DNA of 64,000 nucleotides from Archangium violaceum (GTDB taxonomy: Bacteria > Myxococcota > Myxococcia > Myxococcales > Myxococcaceae): positions 9,799,501 through 9,863,500 of the forward strand of contig NZ_CP069338.1 in assembly GCF_016859125.1 (NCBI RefSeq). The letters run 5' to 3'. The notes beneath the pieces are model-generated. The model had not been told where the DNA came from. It made no database searches and worked only from the letters and a program-made list of their open reading frames with translations. Shown piece after piece: positions 1,755 to 24,072 of the stretch (position 1 is the stretch's first letter; each line of letters opens with the position of its first letter). The translations under genes were made by a program, and so were the position numbers.

Positions 1755-2936
1755 ATGGCCGTCGCCGCCGAGAAGCAGAACCCCGAGTCCAGGCTGCCGC
1801 CCCTCCCCGCCGACGTGGAGGTGACTCCCGTCCGCACCTCGGCGGATCGCACGGCCTTCATCCGCTTCGTCTACTCCATCTACCAGGGCGACCCGAACTT
1901 CGTGCCGCACCTGGAGATGGAGCGCCGGGACTTCATGGATCCGCGCAAGCACCCCTTCTTCGAGTTCGGCGAGGTGGAGTTCTTCCTCGCCCGCCGGGGC
2001 AAGGAGGTGGTGGGGCGGATCGCGGCGGTGAACAACCCCCGCTACAACGAGTTCCACGGCAGCAACGTGGGCTTCTTCGGCCTCTTCGAGTGCGTGAATG
2101 ACGCCGGCGTGGCCCGGGCGCTCTTCGAGGCCGCGGCCTCCTGGCTGCGCGCCAAGGGCTTCGTTTCCGTCATCGGCCCGATGAGCTACTCCACCAATGG
2201 CGAGGTGGGCATGCTCATCGACGGGTTCAACACCCCGCCGGCCATCATGACGACGTACAACCCCTCCTGGTACCCGGCGCTCGTCGAGGCCAACGGTTTC
2301 ACCAAGGCCAAGGATCTGTACGCGTGGGAGCTGTCCTCCTCCACCCCACCGCCGGAGAAGGTGGCGCGCATCGCGGAGAAGATCCGCCAGCGCGAGGGCG
2401 TCACCGTGCGCCCGGTGAACATGAAGGACTTCGACGCCGAGGTGGCCCGGGTGAAGGCCATGTACAACATGGCCTGGGAGAAGAACTGGGGCTTCGTCCC
2501 GATGACGGAGGGCGAGTTCGATCACCTGGCGCGCGATCTGAAGCAGATGGTGCGGCCGGAGCTCGCGCTGATCGCCGAGGTGAAGGGAGAGCCGGTGGGC
2601 TTCGGGCTCACCATCCCGGACGCCAACGAGGCCATCAAGGCCGCCAACGGCCGGCTCACCACGTTCGGCCTGCCCATCGGCCTGGCGAAGCTGCTGCTGG
2701 CCTCGCGCCGCATCCGCCGGCTGCGCCTCGTCCTGCTCGGCACCGTCGAGGGCTACCGGCGCCGCGGCCTGGACGCCATCCTCTACCTGGACACCCTGAA
2801 CAAGGCGCGCGAGCTGGGCTACGAGGGCGGGGAGATCTCCTGGACGCTCGAGGACAACCACCTCGTCAACCGCGCCATCGAGTCCATGGGCGGCAAGCGC
2901 TCCAAGCAGTACCGCGTCTACGAGAAGCCGCTGTAG
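1755..2936 (+). CDS. GNAT-fold acyltransferase, candidate bacterial ceramide synthase
   Basis: This 393-residue protein is well above the size of a single GNAT domain. The C-terminal third is typical GNAT: a hydrophobic strand, then GTVEGYRRRGLD near residues 330-340 in the acyl-CoA binding position, and an LEDNHLVNRAIESMGG ending characteristic of the superfamily. The N-terminal half contains a second alpha/beta region of the type seen in long GNAT proteins. The ATG lies 4 bases after the spt stop with AGGAG ahead of it, so the two are co-translated. Bacterial ceramide synthases are GNAT-superfamily N-acyltransferases located near spt. The assignment as the enzyme that N-acylates the sphingoid base rests on this pairing and is inference. 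Confidence 0.65.
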   Translation: MAVAAEKQNPESRLPPLPADVEVTPVRTSADRTAFIRFVYSIYQGDPNFVPHLEMERRDFMDPRKHPFFEFGEVEFFLARRGKEVVGRIAAVNNPRYNEFHGSNVGFFGLFECVNDAGVARALFEAAASWLRAKGFVSVIGPMSYSTNGEVGMLIDGFNTPPAIMTTYNPSWYPALVEANGFTKAKDLYAWELSSSTPPPEKVARIAEKIRQREGVTVRPVNMKDFDAEVARVKAMYNMAWEKNWGFVPMTEGEFDHLARDLKQMVRPELALIAEVKGEPVGFGLTIPDANEAIKAANGRLTTFGLPIGLAKLLLASRRIRRLRLVLLGTVEGYRRRGLDAILYLDTLNKARELGYEGGEISWTLEDNHLVNRAIESMGGKRSKQYRVYEKPL

Positions 2937-2965
2937 TCGCCCGGAGTCCCCGTCGGCTCCAACGA

Positions 2966-3015
2966 GAAGACCCCACCCCGCCCCTCCTGAGGAGAGGGTC
3001 GGACGTGGGGTCTTC
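2966..3015. terminator. bidirectional hairpin between convergent genes
   Basis: An 11-bp perfect inverted repeat, GAAGACCCCAC at 2966-2976 and its complement at 3005-3015, encloses a second small dyad around CTCCTGAGGAG. It lies between the stops of the convergent GNAT and mlaC-like genes. There is no strong T tract, so it may be a roadblock hairpin rather than a canonical intrinsic terminator. Confidence 0.5.
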
Positions 3016-3037
3016 GCGTTCCGTCACCGCGATCGCG

Positions 3038-7718: not shown

Positions 7719-7866
7719 GCACCTCGGCGACGTCCGGGCCTCGCGCCCGGGCTCCCTCTTCCAGCTCGCTGGCGCCCTTCCCTCGCGTTCCGCTCGACGG
7801 ACTCGGGCTCGGGCTCCACGCGCTCGCTCCACGGGAAGCAGGAGCAACACCCAGTCGAAGCAAATG

Positions 7867-7902
7867 AAAAGGCCCGTCAGGTACCGACCTGACGGGCCTT
7901 TT
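7867..7902. terminator. symmetrical terminator after tRNA-Ala copy 1
   Basis: AAAAGGCCCGTCAGGT (7867-7882) and its perfect complement (7887-7902) surround a 4-base loop. The A-rich and T-rich flanks make it functional on both strands. It lies just past the 3' end of the minus-strand tRNA and also faces transcripts from the prenyl synthase gene. Confidence 0.8.
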
Positions 7903-7907
7903 CACTG

Positions 7908-7980
<73 letters not shown>

Positions 7981-8013
7981 TTATTCACTTGTGCCCCCGA
8001 AGGGGAAAGACGG

Positions 8014-8042
8014 GGCCCGTCAGATTTCCTGACGGGCCTTTT
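8014..8042. terminator. terminator between the tRNA-Ala copies
   Basis: GGCCCGTCAG (8014-8023) pairs with CTGACGGGCC (8029-8038) around a 5-base loop, followed by TTTTC on the plus strand. The stem sequence is the same as that of the 7867-7902 terminator, showing that the tRNA and its terminator were duplicated together. On the minus strand the U tract is weaker, so some readthrough into copy 1 is possible. Confidence 0.65.
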
Positions 8043-8048
8043 CTACTG

Positions 8049-8121
<73 letters not shown>

Positions 8122-8175
8122 AAAACCCCGGAACCACCTGGGAAGTGGTTGCCGTCCGTCGAAAGCGGCGCCCTT

Positions 8176-8574
8176 TTATAACTTCTTCGTGCGGGGCGCT
8201 ACTCCCGAATTCGCCCCTCCTGCGTTTTTTTGCTTCAGACGCTGGGCCGCCTCCTCCCCTTCCTGGAGCAGATCGCCGATCTCCCGCGCCTGGGCCTCGG
8301 CCTTCTGCTGCGCCTGCTCGAGCGCCTTGAGCAGCGGAGCGAACGTGGAGGGGAGCTCCAGCCGGCCCTTCTGCACCTGCTTGAACACGGCCTCGCCCAG
8401 CTCGCGCAGGGCCCGCTCCTTCTCCGACTGGATGAAGTCGCGCTGCGTCTTCACCCGGGCCAGCTCGGCATGCTTCTCCACCTGCTGGCGAAGCTGGGCC
8501 ATCTGGGCCTGGGCGGTTTGGAAAGCCTCCTGGAGCTGACGGAGGGCCTCGGACTGCTTGGGGTCGGCTGCCAC
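8176..8574 (-). CDS. small charged coiled-coil protein, unknown function
   Basis: About 132 residues, almost entirely helical and rich in Gln, Glu, Ala, Lys and Arg with heptad character (for example QLRQQVEKHAELARVKTQR). There is no signal peptide or membrane segment and the tail is basic (APRTKKL). I do not recognise a family. The GTG at 8574 is preferred because AGAGG stands 9 bases ahead. A TTG three codons further upstream would abut that site. It lies between the tRNA pair and the rRNA methyltransferase gene on the same strand, without tight coupling to either. Confidence 0.6.
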   Translation of the reverse strand: MAADPKQSEALRQLQEAFQTAQAQMAQLRQQVEKHAELARVKTQRDFIQSEKERALRELGEAVFKQVQKGRLELPSTFAPLLKALEQAQQKAEAQAREIGDLLQEGEEAAQRLKQKNAGGANSGVAPRTKKL

Positions 8575-8648
8575 CGGGCGCAACCTCTCGGAAATAGAGC
8601 CTGTTTCCTGCGTAGCGTGTGCCCGCCGGGACTGTCAACCCCGCGGGC

Positions 8649-10016
8649 CTACCCCTTCCGGAGCCGGGCGGCGAAGAAGCCCCCGCCCGGTACCCGAGGA
8701 GGCAGCGCCCTGAGGAAGGGTCCATCGCACAGCACCGCGGCCCGCTCGGGACCGAAGATGGGCGCCAGGGGCTCCACGGTGAAGCCCGGCACCCGGGCAA
8801 GGAAGTCGTGCACCACCGCGTCGTTCTCCTCGGGCAGCAGCGAGCACGTCGCGTACACCACCAGCGCTCCGGGCTTCACCTGGCCCGCGAGCTCCTCCAG
8901 CAGGGCGAGCTGCGTGTCGTGGAACTCCTCCACGGCCTTCGCGGTGAGCTTCCACTTCTGATCCGGCTCCTTCGCCAGCGAGCCCGTCCCGCTGCACGGC
9001 GCGTCCACCAGCACCACGTCCGCCTGCGACATGGGCAGTGGATGCGGGAAGGACACGTGGCGCAGGGACAGCTCCCTCGCGCGCTCGCGCGCCTGGGCCA
9101 GCCTGCGACGGGAGCGGTCTCCGGCCAGCACCCGCCCGGCTCTCCCCACCTCGTCCGCCAGCGCGAGCGTCTTGCCGCCCGCCCCCGCGCACACGTCCGC
9201 CACCGTCCGCCCCGTCAGAGAGCCCTCCAGCGGGCGACAGGCCTCCACGATCAACTGGCTGCCCACGTCCTGCACCTGCAGCCGGCCTTCCTTCATCACC
9301 CGCGTCTCGAAGACCCGATGGCTGGCCTCGGCGATGCGCACCGCGTCCAGGGCCACCTCCACCGGCTCCGCGGCCACGCCCTCCTCGGTCAGCCGCGCCA
9401 ACACCTCGGCCCGCGTGCCCGACGGGCGCGCCCGGAAGTGCAGCGTGGGCTCCTCGTCCAGCGCCGCCAGCATCGCCTCCAACACCGGCTCCGGGTGCAG
9501 CTCCGCCAGCCGCTGCACCAACCAGTTGGGGAATGAGTAGCGCGTGGCCAGGCGCTCCGGCCCGGACTCCGGCACCGCCGGCTCCGGCAGCGGCGACTCC
9601 ACCACCCGGGCCAGCAGATCATCCTTGATGGTGCGCGGGCGCACGGGGCCGGGCAGCTTCACCTCGGGGCCGATGCGCGCCCAGCTCGCGCCACAGAAGA
9701 GCCGGCGCCACAGGACGTAGCGCACCAGCGCCTGATCCTCGAGCAGACCGATCTTGCTGGGAGGGTGCCCCAGCGTGCGCGACGCCAGATCCAACAGCCG
9801 CTGGTGTCGCGACATCTCCCGCACCGCCAGGGCCGTGAAGCGCCGCTCCTGGCCGCCCAGGCTCTCCGCCTCCCGCAGGGCATTGCCCAACGCGGCCTTC
9901 AGCGGCTCGCCCTTCAGGATCGACAGGTGCGCTTCGAGGGCCGCCGTCGCCGCGCGCCGCGAGGGACGCCCCAGGCGATCCTCGTCCAGGAATGTGTCAG
10001 GCCAGAGGGTCTTCAC
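8649..10016 (-). CDS. RsmB/NOP2-family rRNA cytosine-C5 methyltransferase
   Basis: A 455-residue SAM-dependent RNA m5C methyltransferase. An N-terminal helical NusB-like region (about 1-200) is followed by the Rossmann domain. Motif I is VADVCAGAGGKT near 270. DAPCSGTG near 335 supplies the cysteine for product release and ATCSLLPEEN near 389 supplies the nucleophilic cysteine. The DQKWKLTAKAVEEF segment between them is typical of the family. The architecture resembles RsmB, which makes m5C967 of 16S rRNA, but the exact target base cannot be read from sequence. It is cytoplasmic, followed at a distance by the coiled-coil gene. Confidence 0.85.
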   Translation of the reverse strand: MKTLWPDTFLDEDRLGRPSRRAATAALEAHLSILKGEPLKAALGNALREAESLGGQERRFTALAVREMSRHQRLLDLASRTLGHPPSKIGLLEDQALVRYVLWRRLFCGASWARIGPEVKLPGPVRPRTIKDDLLARVVESPLPEPAVPESGPERLATRYSFPNWLVQRLAELHPEPVLEAMLAALDEEPTLHFRARPSGTRAEVLARLTEEGVAAEPVEVALDAVRIAEASHRVFETRVMKEGRLQVQDVGSQLIVEACRPLEGSLTGRTVADVCAGAGGKTLALADEVGRAGRVLAGDRSRRRLAQARERARELSLRHVSFPHPLPMSQADVVLVDAPCSGTGSLAKEPDQKWKLTAKAVEEFHDTQLALLEELAGQVKPGALVVYATCSLLPEENDAVVHDFLARVPGFTVEPLAPIFGPERAAVLCDGPFLRALPPRVPGGGFFAARLRKG

Positions 10017-10040
10017 GCTCGAACGTTCTGCCGCGCCCCG

Positions 10041-10694
10041 CTACCCGCGGAGCGCCAGCGAGACGGCCAGACACCCCTCGTGGGTCCGCGCCTCACGCGG
10101 TCCGGCCGACAGATAGAAGTATTGCCGCGCCACCCGCCGCTCGCCCTCCACCTCGAGCGAGCCCTCCACCAACATCACGCCCGTCCCCCCGCGATGCGCC
10201 GGCCGCGGATGGCTCGTCCCAGGCGCCATCCGCGCCCACAGGCGTCCGCCCGGCTCCTCGAACATCCGGATGCCCTCGGCCACCTGCGTCCACGCCCCCT
10301 CCGCGGGCACGGGACCCGCCGCCGCCCGCTCCACCTCGCCACGCAACCCGGCGAAACGCTCCACCAGCGCCAGCATGTCGTCGATCTGGAAGGGCTTGGC
10401 GAGCACCGCGTCCGGCTCGTGCGGCCGGAGCATCCTCACCACCTCGTCCGCGGTGGACGCGCTGACGATGGCCACCGGCTGCAGCCGCTTGCGCGCCGCC
10501 TCCAGGATGATGCGCCCACCCTCCCCCGTCTCGCCGATGCGCAGATCCGTGATGACGAGCGAGAAGAGCTCCTCGCGCAGCGCCGCCAGCGCCTGGGGCA
10601 CACTACCGGCCTCCCGGACCTCGGCCTGCTCGGAGATGAGCTCCACCATCCCCTCACGGAGACTGGCGTCATCCTCCACCAGCAGAACCTTCAT
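10041..10694 (-). CDS. receiver-domain protein with C-terminal cupin-like domain
   Basis: The N-terminal 120 residues are a CheY-like receiver with acidic pair Asp8/Asp9, phosphoacceptor Asp50 (VITDLRIGE) and conserved Lys100 (LAKPF). After a linker, residues about 145-217 form a small beta-rich unit (MAPGTSHPRPAHRGGTGVML, then LEVEGERR and a late HEGCLAVSLAL) resembling the cupin of ChrR-type anti-sigma proteins. There is no DNA-binding or enzymatic output. The ATG at 10694 is chosen over an upstream in-frame start because GGAGG lies just before it. No partner histidine kinase is adjacent. The cupin reading is by eye and is the weaker part of the call. Confidence 0.7.
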   Translation of the reverse strand: MKVLLVEDDASLREGMVELISEQAEVREAGSVPQALAALREELFSLVITDLRIGETGEGGRIILEAARKRLQPVAIVSASTADEVVRMLRPHEPDAVLAKPFQIDDMLALVERFAGLRGEVERAAAGPVPAEGAWTQVAEGIRMFEEPGGRLWARMAPGTSHPRPAHRGGTGVMLVEGSLEVEGERRVARQYFYLSAGPREARTHEGCLAVSLALRG

Positions 10695-10780
10695 CGGGGG
10701 CCTCCCACCCTGCACTCCTGGAGTCTCACTGCGCACGCCTGGGAGTGCCCCTTCCCATCGGGCGAGAGAACTCCCCGGAT

Positions 10781-10866
10781 TGGCCCTCCCCGGACTCGAA
10801 CCGGGACGCGGGGTCAGCCGCAGCGGATTTTGAGTCCGCCTCGTCTACCAATTTCGACAGAGGGCC
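10781..10866 (-). tRNA. tRNA-Leu (anticodon CAA)
   Basis: An 86-base class II tRNA on the minus strand. The acceptor GGCCCTC pairs with GAGGGCC, the D loop contains AATTGGTAGACGA, the anticodon stem GCGGA/TCCGC has loop CTCAAAA giving anticodon CAA, and a long variable arm precedes the GGTTCGAGTCC T arm. The discriminator is A and CCA is not encoded. It reads UUG codons. Confidence 0.95.
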
Positions 10867-10959
10867 CCTTGGGGTTGGAACAAGCGGACGTATACCGCGA
10901 TGCCGCGCCGGACGCATCCGAAGATTGCGGTCCCCCACAACGATCGCTAAACGGGCGCC

Positions 10960-11712
10960 ATGTACAACCTTCTCATCGCCCTGGGTGTGGGTGTCGCCAT
11001 TACCCTGGGTGTCAAGCTCTCCGGCCTCGGTTCCGTCTGGGCCGGCATCATCCCGGGCACCATCGCCTTCGCGGTGACGTACTTCCTGCTCGCCCGGCGT
11101 ATCGGCAACCAGCTCCAGGTCCTGATGACCTCCGTCCAGAAGGAGCTCCAGGGGCAGCCCACCAGTCAGAAGGAGGCCCAGGCGCGTGTCGAGCGGGCCA
11201 TCAAGATGTTGGAAACCGGACTCGCCTACGAGAAGTGGCAGTTCCTCGTGGGCCCGGAGATCCACTCCCAGATTGGAATGTTGAAGTACATGTCCAAGGA
11301 TCTGGACGGGGCCAAGGCGCACTTCGCCAGGGCCAGCCCGCGCAACTACATGGCCAAGGCCATGGAGGGCGCCCTCTACTTCCAGCGCAAGGACTTCGGG
11401 GCGATGAAGAAGTCCTTCGAGGCCGCGGTGACCTCCGGCAAGAAGGAGCCCCTGGTGTGGGCCGTCTATGCCTGGTGTCTCACGCAGAACAAGGAGAAGG
11501 ACGAGGCCCTCAAGGTGCTCGGCCGGGGCGTGGAGGCCAACCCCTCCGACGAGAAGCTGAAGAACAGCCTCTCCGCCCTCCAGAACGACAAGCGGCTGAA
11601 GATGAAGCCGTATGAGCCCATGTGGTGGCAGTTCGGCCTCGAGGCGCCTCCTCCCCAGGTGCTCGGCGGCGGGGGCGGCGGCCGGCGCGTTCAGTTCAAC
11701 CCGCGACGCTGA
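10960..11712 (+). CDS. inner-membrane protein with cytoplasmic TPR-like repeats
   Basis: The 250-residue product has two N-terminal membrane helices (about 3-20 and 28-45) separated by a short turn, so the rest lies on one side, probably the cytoplasm. Helical hairpins follow from about residue 65, including YMAKAMEGALYFQRKDFGAMKKSFEAA and a later VWAVYAWCLTQNKEKDEALKVLGRG, with TPR spacing. The end has a Pro/Gly-rich patch and a basic tail. No enzymatic motif is seen. It is likely a membrane-tethered scaffold. It has its own transcription unit between tRNA-Leu and the GGDEF gene. Confidence 0.7.
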   Translation: MYNLLIALGVGVAITLGVKLSGLGSVWAGIIPGTIAFAVTYFLLARRIGNQLQVLMTSVQKELQGQPTSQKEAQARVERAIKMLETGLAYEKWQFLVGPEIHSQIGMLKYMSKDLDGAKAHFARASPRNYMAKAMEGALYFQRKDFGAMKKSFEAAVTSGKKEPLVWAVYAWCLTQNKEKDEALKVLGRGVEANPSDEKLKNSLSALQNDKRLKMKPYEPMWWQFGLEAPPPQVLGGGGGGRRVQFNPRR

Positions 11713-18791: not shown

Positions 18792-19577
18792 TCAGCGTTC
18801 CAGAGCCGCGCGCACCACGTTCACGGCGGACGCATCCCGCGCGAAGACGAGCCGGGCCGTCTCCACGCTCGCCAGCAGACGGCTCGCCGCACTCAGCAGG
18901 TAACGGCGTCCGGCGGCGAAGGCCTCGGGCAGGAGCGCATTGAGCAGCAGCACCCGCGCCACCTCTCCCGCCCCCTGCGCTTCCCATCGCGAGGCCGCAT
19001 CCCAACCCAGCGTCCCCACCACGCGCAGGGATGCCTCCTGGGGAACACCCACGTTCCACGGCGTCCCGGCCGCGCGCCAGCCGTCCGCCTCGGGCCACAC
19101 CGCCACCAACTCGTCCGTCAGCACCGTGCCACCGGCCCTCGCCCACAACGCCCCCAGGGTGCTCTTCCCCGCTCCCGAGTGTCCCGTCCAGAGGGCGGCC
19201 CGGCCCTGGTGCTCCACCGCCACCCCGTGCACCAGCAGGCCTCCGCGCCTCGCCAGTTCCCCGGCCAGCATCACCTTCAACACCGTGTCCACGGGGAAGC
19301 GGCCCTCGCCCGTCACGGTGGCGCTCCGGCCCTCGGGGGCGATGTCCGCGACGTAGTCCTCCCCATCCACCCGCAGGCCTCCACCGGGGGCCGGGCGAGG
19401 CTCGGGCAGGGATCGCACACCCGGCGTAGCACCCGAAACGGACGGGCGCAGCACACGGACATGCGCCCGGGCCGGCGCCGAGGTGAGGAACGCCGGGAAG
19501 GCGCGGGCGAGCGCCTCCTCCAACGCCGGCTCCTCGGACTCGAGCGCCACCGTCCAACCCGCCAGCGAGAGCGTCAC
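18792..19577 (-). CDS. HPr-kinase-related ATP-binding protein of a peptide cluster
   Basis: This 261-residue protein resembles the C-terminal kinase half of HPr kinase/phosphorylase. GGLLVHGVAVEHQGRAALW leads into the P-loop GHSGAGKST (about 131-140), and TVLTDELVAV near 155 supplies the metal-site acidic residues. It lacks the N-terminal HprK domain, as do the shorter HprK-related proteins found beside PqqD proteins in peptide-modification loci. The start is a GTG 19 bases after the small peptide gene, with no strong ribosome site, so it probably relies on coupling. It is the last gene of the 24072-18792 operon, converging on the peptidase gene. A phosphotransfer role on the peptide or another protein is inference. 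Confidence 0.7.
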   Translation of the reverse strand: MTLSLAGWTVALESEEPALEEALARAFPAFLTSAPARAHVRVLRPSVSGATPGVRSLPEPRPAPGGGLRVDGEDYVADIAPEGRSATVTGEGRFPVDTVLKVMLAGELARRGGLLVHGVAVEHQGRAALWTGHSGAGKSTLGALWARAGGTVLTDELVAVWPEADGWRAAGTPWNVGVPQEASLRVVGTLGWDAASRWEAQGAGEVARVLLLNALLPEAFAAGRRYLLSAASRLLASVETARLVFARDASAVNVVRAALER

Positions 19578-19596
19578 CCCATGGGATGGATGAACC

Positions 19597-19794
19597 TCAT
19601 GGCAGGTCCGGGCACGAGGCCGGAATGTCGCAGCCGAAGTCGTCGCGGAAGGACACCTGCGCGAGCGCGACGAAGGCCTGCGCCCAGAGCACCGCGGGCG
19701 GCTCGTAGACGCGTGAGCCCGTTGCCGGCCCCGACTCCCTCGCGTCGGGCACGGGCGGGGTTCCACTGGAGGCAGGAGAGCGCTCGTGTGTCAT
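19597..19794 (-). CDS. 65-residue candidate precursor peptide
   Basis: Begins with ATG preceded by TTGAGG, 6 bases after the stop of the propeller gene, and ends 19 bases before the kinase GTG. The N-terminal 28 residues are Pro/Ser/Gly-rich. Residues 30-41 read YEPPAVLWAQAF, keeping Tyr30, Pro33, Val35 and Phe41 at the spacing of the leader motif (YxxPxLxxxGxF) recognised by PqqD-type domains in lasso and similar peptides. The C-terminal part carries Cys55 and Cys61 around a Pro-rich FGCDIPASCPDLP tail. Small size, position and the PqqD and HprK neighbours support a precursor. The product and modification are unknown. Confidence 0.6.
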   Translation of the reverse strand: MTHERSPASSGTPPVPDARESGPATGSRVYEPPAVLWAQAFVALAQVSFRDDFGCDIPASCPDLP

Positions 19795-19800
19795 GGGGCC

Positions 19801-22800
19801 TCAAGGGAACGGCACCTGGAAGGCGCAGACGCGGCCGTCCTGGGTGCCCACGTGGAGACGCGACACGGTGCTGTCCACCGTGGGCGTGCCAATGGCCAGC
19901 GCGCCGGGGAGGGAGACCTGCTTGCCGTCCGCGCCCGTGGTGAAGTCGAGCTCGTGCAGCTTCTCGTCCTTGCCGCCGACGTAGAGGCGCTGCACGCCGC
20001 CGCTGGTGAACGAGAAGTTCCCGGACGGGCTCGGGATGGGGGTGGACCAGACCTTCTTCGCCGTGGTGCCCGAGGAGGAGGTGGTGACGCTCCAGCGCTC
20101 CACCCTGCCCTCCGCGTCGCTGGCGCCCAGGATGCTCACGACGAAGCCACCATTCACCGGCCGGGCGAACTGGGAGAACGCGGGCACGGAAGCCGAGGGT
20201 CGGCTCGCCACGGACACGCTCCAGGCGACCGTCATCCCCACCATGTCGAGGCCGTACACCCCGCCATCGCTGTTCGTCACGAGCGCCAGGGGCGTCGCCG
20301 AGCCATAGCGGACGATGCCGAAGTCGATGTCCCCGAGAGACAACCGGGCCAGCTCGTTGCCGGTGAGGGAGTCCAGGATGCGCAGCGAGGCCAGGGTTCC
20401 CCCATTGGAGCGGGCGCCCACGTACAGACGGTTGTACGTGTAGTCGATCAGCATGCCCCCGCTGACCATGCCGAGGTCTCCCGGGGCGTACGTCCACACG
20501 GGCGCGCCGCTGGCGGCATCGAGCGCCACCACCTTGTTGTCGGTGCCGGTGCTCTGCCGTGTGGCGAAGAAGGCCAGGTCGCGCCCGGGGAAGGCCGCCT
20601 TGTAGGCCGCGTTGGTGCTGGAGGTGTTGTAGAGCTGCGCCACCGGGAAGGACTGGATGGTGCCGAGCGACGTGGTGCTCCGCCAGAGGACCTCGCCGGT
20701 GTTGGTGCGGATGACGTAGGTGAAGCCCGCCTGGTCTCCAGTGAGGATGTACTGGCCGGGCAGGCCGTACAGCGGGACGACGGGGAAGCGGCTCTGCACG
20801 GCGCCCTCGAGCCGCACGGGCCGCCAGCGCTCGTCGCCATCGAGCGGGGGCGTGGACGTGTTCGTCAGGTGGGCCGTCACGCGCCCCGAGGTGTTGGAGG
20901 TGAAGATGCCCACGCCGAGCTCGGTGATGGGCTGCTGCAGCGTGGAGAAGCCGACGCTGTAGCACCACAGCGGCTGGCCGGGCCCGCGACTCGTGGGAAC
21001 GGACTTCAGCCCGAGCGACTGCGGCGCGTTGCCGGGCGAATACCGGTGCAGCGCGTCATGGTTGTGGACCCGGTAGACGTAGGCCGTACCGTTGACGAGC
21101 CCGGTGTCCTCGACGGTGGAGGCCACGCTCAGCTCGTCCGCGTACACCACTGTCGCGTTGCCCACCGTCTCGCCTGGCGTGTACCGCCGGCCCGGCTCGG
21201 GCGCGGTGTCGGGGGCGGCGCCCACGGCGCGCAACACGAGCACTCCGTCATGCTCGGACGGGTTGGTCCACACCAGCGTATTGCGGCCCTGCCCGGCGAT
21301 CGCCACCAGCGACTCCACCTCGGGCACCACGCGGTTGACGAACACGGTGACCGGCGCGTCCACGCGGAGCGTGTTGGTGGTGGTTCCGCTCACCTGTGTC
21401 AGCTCCAACTGGTGGCTGAAGGCGGTGTCGCTGGTGACGGTGCCGATGGCGGAGTAGTCGAGCGAGAAGGTCTTCTGTGTGCCCGGAGTGATGCCGGGCT
21501 GGCCGGAGGGCGCCGTCCAGGTGTAGCCCTTGTTGGAGCTCGTGCCCCAGCCGCTGTGATCATTGGCGAACGGACTCGCCGAGACGGTGAAGAAGGCCGG
21601 GTCCGGAGTGAGCAGCTTCACGGTCCGGAGCTCCACCGTGCCTCCGTTGTAGAGGGTGTACTGGAGCGTCCGGTTCTTCGCGCCGGAGATGAGCGAGGAG
21701 GGTTCGATGGCCAACCGGTGCTCCACGATGCGCCCCTGCGCGGAGACCACCAGGCCCGTGTTGATGGGGGTGGTGCCACGCACGGCGTCCGCCTGGCTCT
21801 CGAACTGGAAGGTGCTCCCGATGGGGCCCTCCATCCGGTACTTCCAGATGAAGGAGAGGGACGAGCCGGGGCCAAGCGATGCGGCGCTCGCGGGAGTGGG
21901 TCCGCTCAGCAACGAGGGCACCGCCGTCCCCACGAAGCCGGGCGCGCGGGGGACCACCTCCCGGTACGTGGACAGGGACGGGTTGGACACCACGAGGCGG
22001 ACCGTGACCGTATCGCCCGGAGCGATGCTGGCGGGCAGCGCCTCGAGAAGCGCCGGGAAGCTGCTCACGTTCACCTGGAGCGAGGAGGTCGGCGCGGTGC
22101 TCACCGTGCCATTGCCCGCCGAGGCATGGAAGACGGCCGTCCCCTCCCCCGTGGATTGCAGCTTCCCCGTGAAGGCGCCGGTGGAACCAGGATCCAGGGA
22201 GAGCGAGGCGGGAGAGAAGGCCGTCACCGTCCGGTCGAAGGCCGCGCTGCCCACCACCACCGGGCCACTCAGGGTGATGTTGGCCTGATTCACCAGCGAG
22301 CGGTTCACGACGATGAGTTGCACCGTGACGTTGCCCCCGAGTTGAAGGGTCCGCGGAAGCACCGTGAGGGTCGCGGACAGACCCACGCGCTTCCAGCGCG
22401 CCAGCGTCGGGTCACCGGAGAACGACGTGTTGGTGCACATGTCACGCGCCTCGGAGGCCTTCTTGCTGGCATTGCCGGCCACCAACGCGTCGGTGGCGTC
22501 GGCGTTGGCCGCGATGCCCACGAGCCGCAGCGTGAAGCGCGCGGAGGCTCCCGGCGCGAGCCCGAACGACCCGGGACAGGCGCCACCCGCCCGATAGGTG
22601 ATGCGACGCTCCTTGCGATCGATGGTGCTCACCGTCCAGCCCGCCGGTGCATCGCCACCATCGACGTCGTAGGCGGTGCCATCGACCGCGAGGCTGATCT
22701 CGTTGAGGGGGCGGGTGCTGGTGGAGGTGTTGCGGACCTCGAAGACGAGCGAGGAGATCTCCCCCATGACGGAGGTGCCATCGACCGGCGTGACGGTCCA

Positions 22801-22866
22801 CGCGTTCTGGGCCAGCGCGGCGGCAGGGAGCAGCAGGAGCAGGATCGGGAGCAGGCGTGCGTTCAT
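19801..22866 (-). CDS. large secreted protein with Ig-like repeats and a PQQ-type beta-propeller
   Basis: This 1021-residue protein has a clear signal peptide (MNARLLPILLLLLPAAALAQ). Residues about 20-520 contain tandem beta-sandwich units of the CARDB/DUF11 type with recurrent patterns such as PGDTVTVRLVVSNPSL. A fibronectin-III-like unit follows (LVWTNPSEHDGVLVLR through TAYVYRVHNH). From about 640 to the end there are propeller blades with tryptophan-docking repeats (GEVLWRSTTS, GAPVWTYAPGDLG, KKVWSTPIPSP). No PQQ-dehydrogenase catalytic residues are evident, so it is probably a surface or periplasmic binding scaffold. It lies inside the peptide operon, 11 bases after the lipoprotein gene. 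Confidence 0.75.
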   Translation of the reverse strand: MNARLLPILLLLLPAAALAQNAWTVTPVDGTSVMGEISSLVFEVRNTSTSTRPLNEISLAVDGTAYDVDGGDAPAGWTVSTIDRKERRITYRAGGACPGSFGLAPGASARFTLRLVGIAANADATDALVAGNASKKASEARDMCTNTSFSGDPTLARWKRVGLSATLTVLPRTLQLGGNVTVQLIVVNRSLVNQANITLSGPVVVGSAAFDRTVTAFSPASLSLDPGSTGAFTGKLQSTGEGTAVFHASAGNGTVSTAPTSSLQVNVSSFPALLEALPASIAPGDTVTVRLVVSNPSLSTYREVVPRAPGFVGTAVPSLLSGPTPASAASLGPGSSLSFIWKYRMEGPIGSTFQFESQADAVRGTTPINTGLVVSAQGRIVEHRLAIEPSSLISGAKNRTLQYTLYNGGTVELRTVKLLTPDPAFFTVSASPFANDHSGWGTSSNKGYTWTAPSGQPGITPGTQKTFSLDYSAIGTVTSDTAFSHQLELTQVSGTTTNTLRVDAPVTVFVNRVVPEVESLVAIAGQGRNTLVWTNPSEHDGVLVLRAVGAAPDTAPEPGRRYTPGETVGNATVVYADELSVASTVEDTGLVNGTAYVYRVHNHDALHRYSPGNAPQSLGLKSVPTSRGPGQPLWCYSVGFSTLQQPITELGVGIFTSNTSGRVTAHLTNTSTPPLDGDERWRPVRLEGAVQSRFPVVPLYGLPGQYILTGDQAGFTYVIRTNTGEVLWRSTTSLGTIQSFPVAQLYNTSSTNAAYKAAFPGRDLAFFATRQSTGTDNKVVALDAASGAPVWTYAPGDLGMVSGGMLIDYTYNRLYVGARSNGGTLASLRILDSLTGNELARLSLGDIDFGIVRYGSATPLALVTNSDGGVYGLDMVGMTVAWSVSVASRPSASVPAFSQFARPVNGGFVVSILGASDAEGRVERWSVTTSSSGTTAKKVWSTPIPSPSGNFSFTSGGVQRLYVGGKDEKLHELDFTTGADGKQVSLPGALAIGTPTVDSTVSRLHVGTQDGRVCAFQVPFP

Positions 22867-22877
22867 GGCGGGCCTCC

Positions 22878-23381
22878 TCAGCGCTCCAGGGTGAAGGAGA
22901 CGGCGGTCAGGGGCGAGCCATCGACGAAGAAGCGCGCCTCCCACCTCCCGCTCAGTCCATGGAGGGGAATGTTCGTCCCCGCCACCGGCAGACTGAAGAC
23001 GAGCTCGCGAGCCTCCGTGGGGACGACGGCCTCCACCATGCGGGTGTGCTTCTCGTAGGCCGCGGGGCCGGGGGCCAGGAACTCCGCGTCCACCGACACC
23101 GAGCCCACGAGGCCGCTCACGCGCAGCCGCACCTCCACCGCCGTCACGTCCGACAGGCCCCGCGTGCCCTCGGGCACGTAGAGCACCTCCGCCCTGCCCA
23201 CTCGCGGCGGCAGCGGAGGCGTGGACCTCACGGACGGGGAGATGCCGTTCCATGACACCTCGACGGGGATCACGGGTCCGGCGTCCGACGGCGGCGCCTC
23301 TTCTCCAGGAAAGCTGGGAGGAGCCCCCTCATCACAGGCCGCCAGCCACAGGACCACCGACGCCATCTCGAGCGCTTTCAT
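22878..23381 (-). CDS. lipoprotein of the peptide operon, unknown function
   Basis: 167 residues. The short signal MKALEMASVVLWLAAC ends in a lipobox with Cys16, followed by an acidic Pro-rich linker and a predicted beta-sandwich (VEVSWNGISPSV, then VEVRLRVSGLVGSVSVDAEF and a final ARFFVDGSPLTAVSFTLER). The ATG overlaps the PqqD stop by 4 bases (ATGA). Its beta pattern resembles the Ig-like units of the following 1021-residue protein, so the two may interact in the periplasm or at the surface. No family recognised. Confidence 0.65.
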   Translation of the reverse strand: MKALEMASVVLWLAACDEGAPPSFPGEEAPPSDAGPVIPVEVSWNGISPSVRSTPPLPPRVGRAEVLYVPEGTRGLSDVTAVEVRLRVSGLVGSVSVDAEFLAPGPAAYEKHTRMVEAVVPTEARELVFSLPVAGTNIPLHGLSGRWEARFFVDGSPLTAVSFTLER

Positions 23382-23668
23382 CGAAGCACCTCCCCTGCGT
23401 CCAACAGCCCATGACCCGCGAGCCGCTCGAGGAACCGCAGGCAGTCCTCGAGCACCCGCTCCACGTCCATGCCGTACTCGTGCGCCACCACGCCGGCGAT
23501 TTCCCGCGCGGTGCGCGTCCCGTCACTCAGCTCCCAGATACGCGCCGCGGTGTCGTTGAGGCCCCGCAGCATCCGTCCTTCCGGATCCAACACCACGAAG
23601 TCCGAGCCGAAGCGTTGCCCGTCCGCGCCCTCGCGTCGGCGGGGGATTCTGTCGGCCCGGAAGCTCAT
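23378..23668 (-). CDS. PqqD-family peptide-binding protein
   Basis: 96 residues with the PqqD winged-helix signature: basic N-terminus, a strand pair ending FVVLDPEGRMLRGLNDTAARIWELSDG, then TAREIAGVVAHEYGMDVERVLEDCLRFLERL and a hydrophobic tail LAGHGLLD. Proteins of this family (RiPP recognition elements) grip the leader of a precursor peptide and present it to the modifying enzyme. It overlaps the S26-like gene upstream and the lipoprotein downstream, both by ATGA, so the three are produced together. The likely client is the 65-residue peptide encoded at 19597-19794. That pairing is inference from operon context and the leader motif. Confidence 0.85.
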   Translation of the reverse strand: MSFRADRIPRRREGADGQRFGSDFVVLDPEGRMLRGLNDTAARIWELSDGTRTAREIAGVVAHEYGMDVERVLEDCLRFLERLAGHGLLDAGEVLR

Positions 23669-24072
23669 GCGCGCCTCCGTCCGAGCAGCGCCGCCAGCCC
23701 GCGCTTCACCGCCACGCGCCAACGGCCCCAGCGCCGTGGCCCCTGGTCCCATCGGCCTGGCGCGAGCACCTCGCCGCCCCGGCGTACCAGGCACACCCGC
23801 CCCAGCACCCGCGCACGCGGTAGCGGCGGATCCTCCGCCCAGGCGTTGTCCCCGAGCAGCACGCACGTGTCCGCGTCACTCCGGCGCACGCGGTGCACCA
23901 CCAGCGCATGCGCGAAGCGCGCGAGCACCACCTCACCGGGACGCGGCGCCTCCACCAGCGGCTCCACGCCCGCCAGGTCCCCCGAACGCAACGAGGGCCA
24001 CATGCTGTCTCCCCGGATGGGAATCCAGCACAGGCCCTCGTCTCGACGTTCGTGCGTCCAGTCTGGAGGCAT
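23665..24072 (-). CDS. S24/S26-like peptidase with Ser-His dyad
   Basis: 135 residues, small and apparently soluble. IRGDSMWPSL gives nucleophile Ser23, SGDLAGVEPL follows, and ALVVHRV places His60 where bacterial leader peptidases have lysine, as in the SipW/ER-type signal peptidases that use a Ser-His pair. GDNAWAED near 74-81 matches the family's late GDN motif. There is no N-terminal membrane anchor, so export-type cleavage is unlikely. Trimming the leader of the operon's peptide is an attractive inference. First gene of the operon, with no clear ribosome site before ATG 24072. Confidence 0.7.
   Translation of the reverse strand: MPPDWTHERRDEGLCWIPIRGDSMWPSLRSGDLAGVEPLVEAPRPGEVVLARFAHALVVHRVRRSDADTCVLLGDNAWAEDPPLPRARVLGRVCLVRRGGEVLAPGRWDQGPRRWGRWRVAVKRGLAALLGRRRA

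Follow-up and report, generated by a model that had tools for sequence, protein, structure and literature searches.

A six-gene operon was analysed in a stretch of 64,000 nucleotides of the Archangium violaceum genome (contig NZ_CP069338.1, positions 9,799,501 to 9,863,500 of the forward strand), hereafter referred to as the window. All six genes lie on the minus strand. In operon order they encode an S24/S26 (SipW/Sec11-like) serine peptidase of 135 aa, the proposed leader peptidase (window positions 23665..24072); a PqqD-family recognition element (RRE) for a ribosomally synthesized and post-translationally modified peptide (RiPP), 96 aa (23378..23668); a putative lipoprotein of 167 aa (22878..23381); a secreted protein of 1021 aa with a stack of immunoglobulin (Ig)-like domains and a BamB/PQQ-like β-propeller (19801..22866); a 65-aa precursor peptide (19597..19794); and an HprK-like kinase of 261 aa (18792..19577). 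The successive intergenic distances are −4, −4, 11, 6 and 19 bases. The operon is flanked by hisS on one side and by a peptidase/miaA pair on the other. A first-pass annotation made from the sequence alone had described six same-strand genes with short overlaps or gaps; all six frames were found at the positions it gave, and only the kinase start was amended, to a GTG at 19577.

Results

Leader register of the precursor peptide

The operon can be compared with the pathway of Linear Polyphosphorylated Peptides (LPPs), described in 2026 for the lppA, K, B, S, D and N genes of Paenibacillus alginolyticus (PMC13381572). In the portions of that report available to us, on which all comparisons with LPPs are based, the RRE LppB binds a YxxP motif in the leader, the HprK-like kinase LppK puts phosphates on Ser3 of the core and the SipW-type peptidase LppS (S29, H68, D93) cuts after T-1 only with LppB. 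The LPP precursor consensus is YxxPxVLxHQxIxFETxxS; with the Tyr counted as position 0, cleavage occurs after position 15, and position 18 holds the phosphorylated Ser3. The window peptide matches this register at Y30, P33, V35, L36, Q39 and S48, its counterpart of the RRE-binding motif being YEPPAV (leader residues 30–35, codons at 19690..19707, minus strand as for all features of the operon). With the tyrosines aligned, the predicted cleavage site is A45|Q46 (ALA|QVS, 19657..19662), which also has an AxA context, and the predicted phosphosite is S48 (19651..19653), residue 3 of the core and a position where Ser or Thr is conserved. The first-pass annotation had noted a leader spacing of the PqqD type; this was confirmed and can now be pinned to a published pathway of RRE, SipW-type peptidase and HprK-like kinase. 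Its estimate of the core, residues about 48–65, was amended by moving the likely start to residue 46. The predicted core (residues 46–65, 19600..19659) has about 20 residues and includes C55 and C61.

Related peptides were collected with a motif pattern that fixed or restricted positions 0, 2, 3, 5, 6 and 7, and 47 distinct DNA versions were obtained, corresponding to 34 distinct proteins when counted from the Tyr on. The first leader count required Ser or Thr near position 18; a rerun without this filter returned the same 47. After a variable N terminus the leaders follow the pattern Y-x-[PA]-P-x-[IV]-[LVA]-W-x-[QHE]-x-F-x-x-L-[AT], and position 18 is Ser in 44, Thr in two and Val in one version. 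Since both counts depended on the motif pattern, a count of 35 loci found by profile only was added. There, position 0 is Tyr in 34 loci and Trp in one, position 6 is Leu in 29, Val in four and Ala in two, position 9 is Gln in 31, His in two and Glu in two, position 11 is Phe in 34 and Leu in one, position 15 is Ala in 32, Thr in two and Gly in one, and position 18 is Ser in 32, Thr in two and Val in one. Positions 17 and 19 are variable, although position 18 is Ser or Thr in 34/35 of these loci.

Two cysteines are present in the short tail of 46/47 versions (one Cys in locus L052). The core is 15 residues long in 35 of the 47, close to Q-x-S-x-C-x-IPGESEC-x-P, while cores in the window's own genus are longer and more variable (QVSFRDDFGCDIPASCPDLP, which is the window core, QVSFHDDYGCDIPGSCSDLP and QVSNKDYACEPGACEDVP). 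Ratios of nonsynonymous to synonymous polymorphism (pN/pS) indicate purifying selection, with values of 0.33 for the motif, based on 46 sequences, and 0.43 for the core, based on 35. Of the conserved leader and variable core expected in the first-pass annotation, the leader is indeed kept, but the core, with its two cysteines retained, shows hardly any variation in two large genera.

Conservation of the operon in myxobacteria

Searches with the peptide covered 195 genomes of the phylum. The peptide profile matched 54/147 genomes of the class at E≤1e-14, and on this ground a chance open frame was rejected. All 53 genomes with a close kinase (E≤1e-20, among 145 genomes of the order) also have the peptide at E≤1e-14, and a single genome, G128, has the peptide with no kinase match at E≤1e-20; both cut-offs were picked after the lists had been seen. 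The first-pass RiPP-like reading required that relatives have and conserve the small frame next to their PqqD and kinase genes, and this is what was found.

After three repeats (L110, L111 and L125, equal to L052, L104 and L109) were dropped, 35 fetched loci of the window's layout (type A) and 23 of a second layout, described below, remained. PqqD, S26 and HprK genes accompany the peptide gene on one strand in 27 of the 35 type A loci, S26 being a fragment at the contig end in two of them (L128 and L129). In the eight incomplete loci, no S26 gene was detected in the fetched stretch (L045, L104) or before a nearby contig end (L047, L048); the kinase match is on another contig, L046 (L101); contig ends are met (L103, L108); or neither S26 nor kinase is present in the 12 kb fetched (L102). 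In L102 the PqqD gene lies on the opposite strand just past the peptide (2590-3032), which sets this locus apart from every other type A locus with both genes identified. L105, L106 and L107 gave weak peptide matches but no PqqD in the fetched stretch, and were dropped.

All six genes occur in the same order in 16 fetched relatives (L031–L044, L049 and L050; the propeller match of L038 is in three pieces). In 15 of them hisS is upstream (it was not seen in L033), and in 15 miaA is downstream (it was not seen within the fetched stretch of L032). Beyond the family, an altered gene order is seen in Anaeromyxobacter oryzae Red232, which has S26, PqqD, peptide, propeller protein, a lipoprotein-like frame and kinase. 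In a Deltaproteobacteria metagenome-assembled genome (L104), a large protein matching the non-propeller part only is encoded together with lipoprotein, peptide and kinase; a radical SAM/SPASM enzyme and PqqD are encoded there as well, and the opposite strand carries an NTP_transf_5 gene. In this neighbourhood of the peptide and kinase genes (7773-11247), peptides of the family may be modified further. A search of an 84,980-species collection with the "AW" form of the leader pattern returned only these two known loci, the LW/VW form being sought within the phylum only.

In nearly all loci of both layouts the peptide gene stands immediately ahead of the kinase gene. Such an arrangement, and an operon that contains no exporter gene, could be expected if the small peptide served only to regulate the kinase or the expression of the operon, being handled by PqqD, kinase and S26 with no exported product. 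A leader peptidase and a conserved two-cysteine core would be superfluous for such a regulator, the gene for a secreted partner recurs, and in L052 the propeller and lipoprotein genes separate peptide from kinase. We therefore consider a purely regulatory peptide unlikely.

The RRE and its pairing with the leader

The PqqD protein matches PF05402 at 1.2e-16, above the cut-off, so that the operon, like that of LPP, encodes a discrete RRE. A PDB search with the single window sequence gave mostly WD40 matches and was uninformative. The profile of the RRE family matched LppB (9x8z) at 1.5e-10 and the lasso B1 protein TbiB1 at 3.3e-12. Through the 9x8z chain, whose numbering offset of 18 fits all of LppB N33, V35, C39, D70, F74, M78 and L83, residues N38, D75 and F79 of the window protein correspond to LppB N33, D70 and F74. 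LppB D70 bonds the leader Tyr (PMC13381572).

The counterpart of D75 was compared with the leader in 57 RRE–leader pairs of both layouts (repeats L110 and L125 and the one-partner loci L055, L103, L105–L107, L111 and L130 were excluded). It is Asp in 55 pairs and Glu in two, L069 and L101, and both Glu-containing RREs are paired with leaders that have Trp in place of Tyr (one-sided Fisher 0.0019 over the 57 pairs, a value to be taken only as a guide, because related genomes are treated as independent and the pattern had been noticed beforehand). The two Glu cases look like separate events, since they come from different layouts and genomes. The third PqqD of the genome sits in what appears by eye to be an ordinary PQQ operon.

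That TbiB1 is the best match of the RRE profile, together with the YxxPx[LVI] element shared by the leaders and with the existence of phosphorylated lasso clusters that include HprK kinases (PMC8498205, PMC10368454), raises the question of a cryptic lasso peptide, with PqqD as the B1 protein and a cyclase and B2 protease supplied in trans. The genome has no B2 protease (PF13471) at E≤1e-5, while 19/145 genomes of the order do, and the lasso peptide was set aside for this reason. In addition, the core does not start with Gly, the place of B2 is occupied by the S26 peptidase and no asparagine-synthetase-like cyclase is found among the six genes, to which the search for it was confined. A lasso product is very improbable.

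The HprK-like kinase

The kinase, HprK-like as in LPP, keeps the HPr-kinase-type residues H118, G133, K139, S140, D156 and E157 (numbered as in P0001, which has one extra residue ahead of the GTG). H118, K139, S140, D156 and E157 are present in 15/15 aligned rows and G133 in at least 90%. The spacing is identical to that of H148, G163, K169, S170, D186 and D187 in BsfK, the kinase of the Bsf phosphorylated lasso peptide of Bradymonas sediminis, with Glu (E157) replacing the second Asp (D187) of the BsfK pair. According to the accessible text on Bsf, the RRE speeds the kinase and core Ser3 is phosphorylated (PMC10368454). The Bsf system has a lasso cyclase and a B2 leader protease, and the window operon has neither. 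Lasso peptides of the paeninodin type likewise combine an HprK homologue acting on a RiPP precursor with a discrete RRE (PMC8498205, PMC13381572, as far as available), but differ in having the C-terminal Ser phosphorylated, a lasso fold and a Trp leader motif.

PqqD-family and/or HprK-related members of the NCBIfam HPr-rel-A, SynChlorMet and GeoRSP systems match weakly, far below curated cut-offs. Membership in HPr-rel-A (TIGR04352/TIGR04353) was rejected at 27.7 of 200 and 16.6 of 35 bits. HprK-like genes in L055, L056, L061, L066, L130, L131 and L046 have no recognisable peptide just upstream.

The S26 peptidase

The peptidase matches Pfam PF00717 at 4.5e-12, above the cut-off, and TIGR02228 only below the cut-off; its best solved relative is Sec11A (1.8e-4). 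S23, H60 and D81, the counterparts of LppS S29, H68 and D93, are invariant in 11/11 rows, as befits a SipW-like Ser-His-Asp peptidase of the kind found in LPP. No hydrophobic stretch of membrane length was detected (the maximum 19-residue mean hydropathy is 0.68), which bears out the first-pass description of a soluble enzyme.

An alternative use for the enzymes would be that the S26 peptidase and the kinase act on the lipoprotein or the propeller protein, with the peptide remaining uncut and serving as a cofactor of assembly. In favour are the close packing of the genes and the retention of peptide, PqqD and kinase in L045 and L104, where no S26 was detectable. Against it, the peptidase has no membrane segment, the secretion signals of both putative substrates look ordinary by eye and the LPP register of the peptide is retained along with an AxA-like site; an uncut cofactor is very unlikely.

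The secreted propeller protein and the lipoprotein

A signal peptide (by eye), an Ig-like stack and a C-terminal BamB-like propeller make up the 1021-aa protein. Its structural model has a predicted local distance difference test score (pLDDT) of 75 and a predicted template modelling score (pTM) of 0.47; in view of the latter value, only the domain types were used. The lipoprotein has an LAAC box, read by eye, and no family match. Its C-terminal part is modelled as one Ig-like β-sandwich domain (pLDDT 81), for which a fold search returned generic β-sandwiches only. In L045 (8047-9320) and L047 (1111-2320), lipoprotein-type genes match twice around PqqD and no S26 was detected in its usual place; the contig of L047 starts 1.4 kb upstream of PqqD. 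The gene order suggests that the peptide acts together with the lipoprotein or the propeller protein, and the product may be displayed or bound at the envelope.

A second layout of the same processing genes

The same genome contains, at ~6.014–6.021 Mb, a further system in which all four processing genes recur (3349-10904 of L065, G000:C1:6010764-6025964). It comprises PqqD, an FG-GAP/Ig protein of ~2000 aa, a 47-aa two-cysteine YxxP peptide with the sequence MERPKKPYRRPKVRSVKILVPDLFTPTNCVPTEFDPCDGLLPKSSGA, a kinase resembling HprK and an S26-like frame. When a profile was built from this peptide, 25/195 genomes of the phylum matched at E≤0.01. All 23 fetched second-layout loci, each from a different genome (that of the window and 22 others), have the processing genes in the order PqqD, peptide, HprK, S26; the presence of FG-GAP domains in the large protein was checked for L063 and L065 only. 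The processing quartet thus occurs alongside secreted propeller proteins of at least two kinds, BamB-like and FG-GAP. Second-layout cores have four cysteines in L060, L069, L112 and L114, six in L113 and otherwise two. For one second-layout peptide match (G084:C72:24477-24641), the profile search reported a single in-frame TGA.

Myxobacteria are predators, and a role in predation or as an antimicrobial, as is usual for specialised metabolites, would be compatible with the mechanism proposed below. The variation of second-layout cores, with 2, 4 or 6 cysteines, and that of type A cores within the window's own genus would fit such a role. However, type A operons lie between hisS and miaA across genera and their core is nearly fixed in most versions, whereas LPP genes of Bacilli are described, in the text accessible to us, as patchy and transferred (PMC13381572). 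A weapon of this kind appears quite unlikely.

Discussion

We think it likely that the operon makes a short linear phosphopeptide by an LPP-like pathway, the product itself, its phosphorylation, cleavage and export and the binding of a partner being predicted by analogy. Gene order, conservation, the leader register, conserved catalytic residues and RRE–leader covariation are seen in the sequences and support this reading. The PqqD protein would clamp the leader through Tyr30-x-x-Pro33-x-Val35, the HprK-like kinase would phosphorylate Ser48 and the soluble S26-type peptidase would cut after Ala45, releasing a two-cysteine core of ~20 residues here and of 15 in the commonest relatives. The lipoprotein and the secreted Ig/propeller protein, encoded by closely packed genes, are probably where the peptide would end up, or what it would act with, at the envelope.

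The likeness to LPP consists of a discrete RRE, a SipW-type Ser-His-Asp leader peptidase, an HprK-like kinase, the absence of a cyclase from both, a YxxPx[VI]L..Q register and a Ser at +18 from the Tyr. Relative to the LPP consensus, Y0, P3, V/I5, L6, Q9 and S18 are kept in most peptides, and positions 8 and 13–15 differ. According to the available text, LPPs are restricted to Bacillota, with a patchy distribution and transfer in Bacilli, the SpI network is "predominantly" from Bacillota, LPP C termini are highly variable, and an NTP (nucleoside triphosphate) transferase and an MsbA-like exporter are core LPP cluster genes (PMC13381572). In contrast, the window operon lies outside Bacillota at a fixed chromosomal place with apparently vertical inheritance, has a short two-cysteine core that is largely kept and adds secreted Ig/propeller and lipoprotein genes.

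Several observations weigh against an LPP-like pathway. Neither an NTP transferase nor an MsbA-like exporter is encoded by the six genes, and the two above-cut-off NTP_transf_5 matches of the genome map to another region, which by eye resembles a polysaccharide locus (L139, G000:C1:5450000-5469000), a 19-kb stretch with no PqqD, S26, HprK or peptide match. The LPP consensus residues H8, F13, E14 and T15 are mostly replaced by E, A, L and A. The L045 peptide has Val at position 18 (Ser at 16 and 19), and two of the 47 peptides have Thr at the Ser3 position, yet LppK rejected Thr there in the available account (PMC13381572). Second-layout peptides keep Ser or Thr at position 19, the Tyr-to-Ser spacing of Bsf, in only 14/20 distinct sequences. 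As for the enzymes, the kinase is below every curated cut-off (TIGR04352 1.3e-6, PF07475 0.032), and its best PDB profile match is a designed P-loop protein, with the HPr kinases 2qmh/1jb1 behind it at 4e-4. For the peptidase, LexA repressors follow Sec11A closely at 6.6e-4. Because S26 is undetected in the fetched stretch of type A loci L045 and L104 and before a nearby contig end in L047 and L048, leader cleavage may differ in these loci. The RRE–leader covariation first came to notice with 41 pairs; the 16 pairs added afterwards as a test contributed one new Trp leader, L114, which keeps Asp and is a counter-example.

We conclude that the operon is real and conserved and is best read as an LPP-like phosphopeptide system with secreted propeller partners. 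Given the absence of an NTP transferase and an exporter, the differences at leader positions 8 and 13–15, the conserved core, the fixed place and the loci with no detectable S26, it is regarded as working like LPP and is not counted as a member of it. A literature search found no report of the operon in myxobacteria among the matches listed, most subscription papers lying outside its reach. Term searches of two RRE surveys (PMC7470986, PMC12710340) gave no occurrence of kinase, HPr, S26 or signal peptidase.

We tentatively propose, as a possibility only, that a vertically inherited phosphopeptide fixed in myxobacteria does not serve as a weapon and is instead dedicated to the co-encoded secreted Ig/propeller protein, as its ligand or as a cofactor of its maturation, and that the quartet, paired once with a BamB-like and once with an FG-GAP protein, represents a RiPP class that equips surface propellers. 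A pathway described in 2026, in the text available, as restricted to Bacillota and of unknown role has relatives that keep a constant chromosomal position in a group amenable to experiment. With a secreted partner gene named, the role of such phosphopeptides becomes directly testable by gene deletion, and their recurring link to large secreted Ig/propeller proteins suggests a role at the envelope rather than an antibiotic one.

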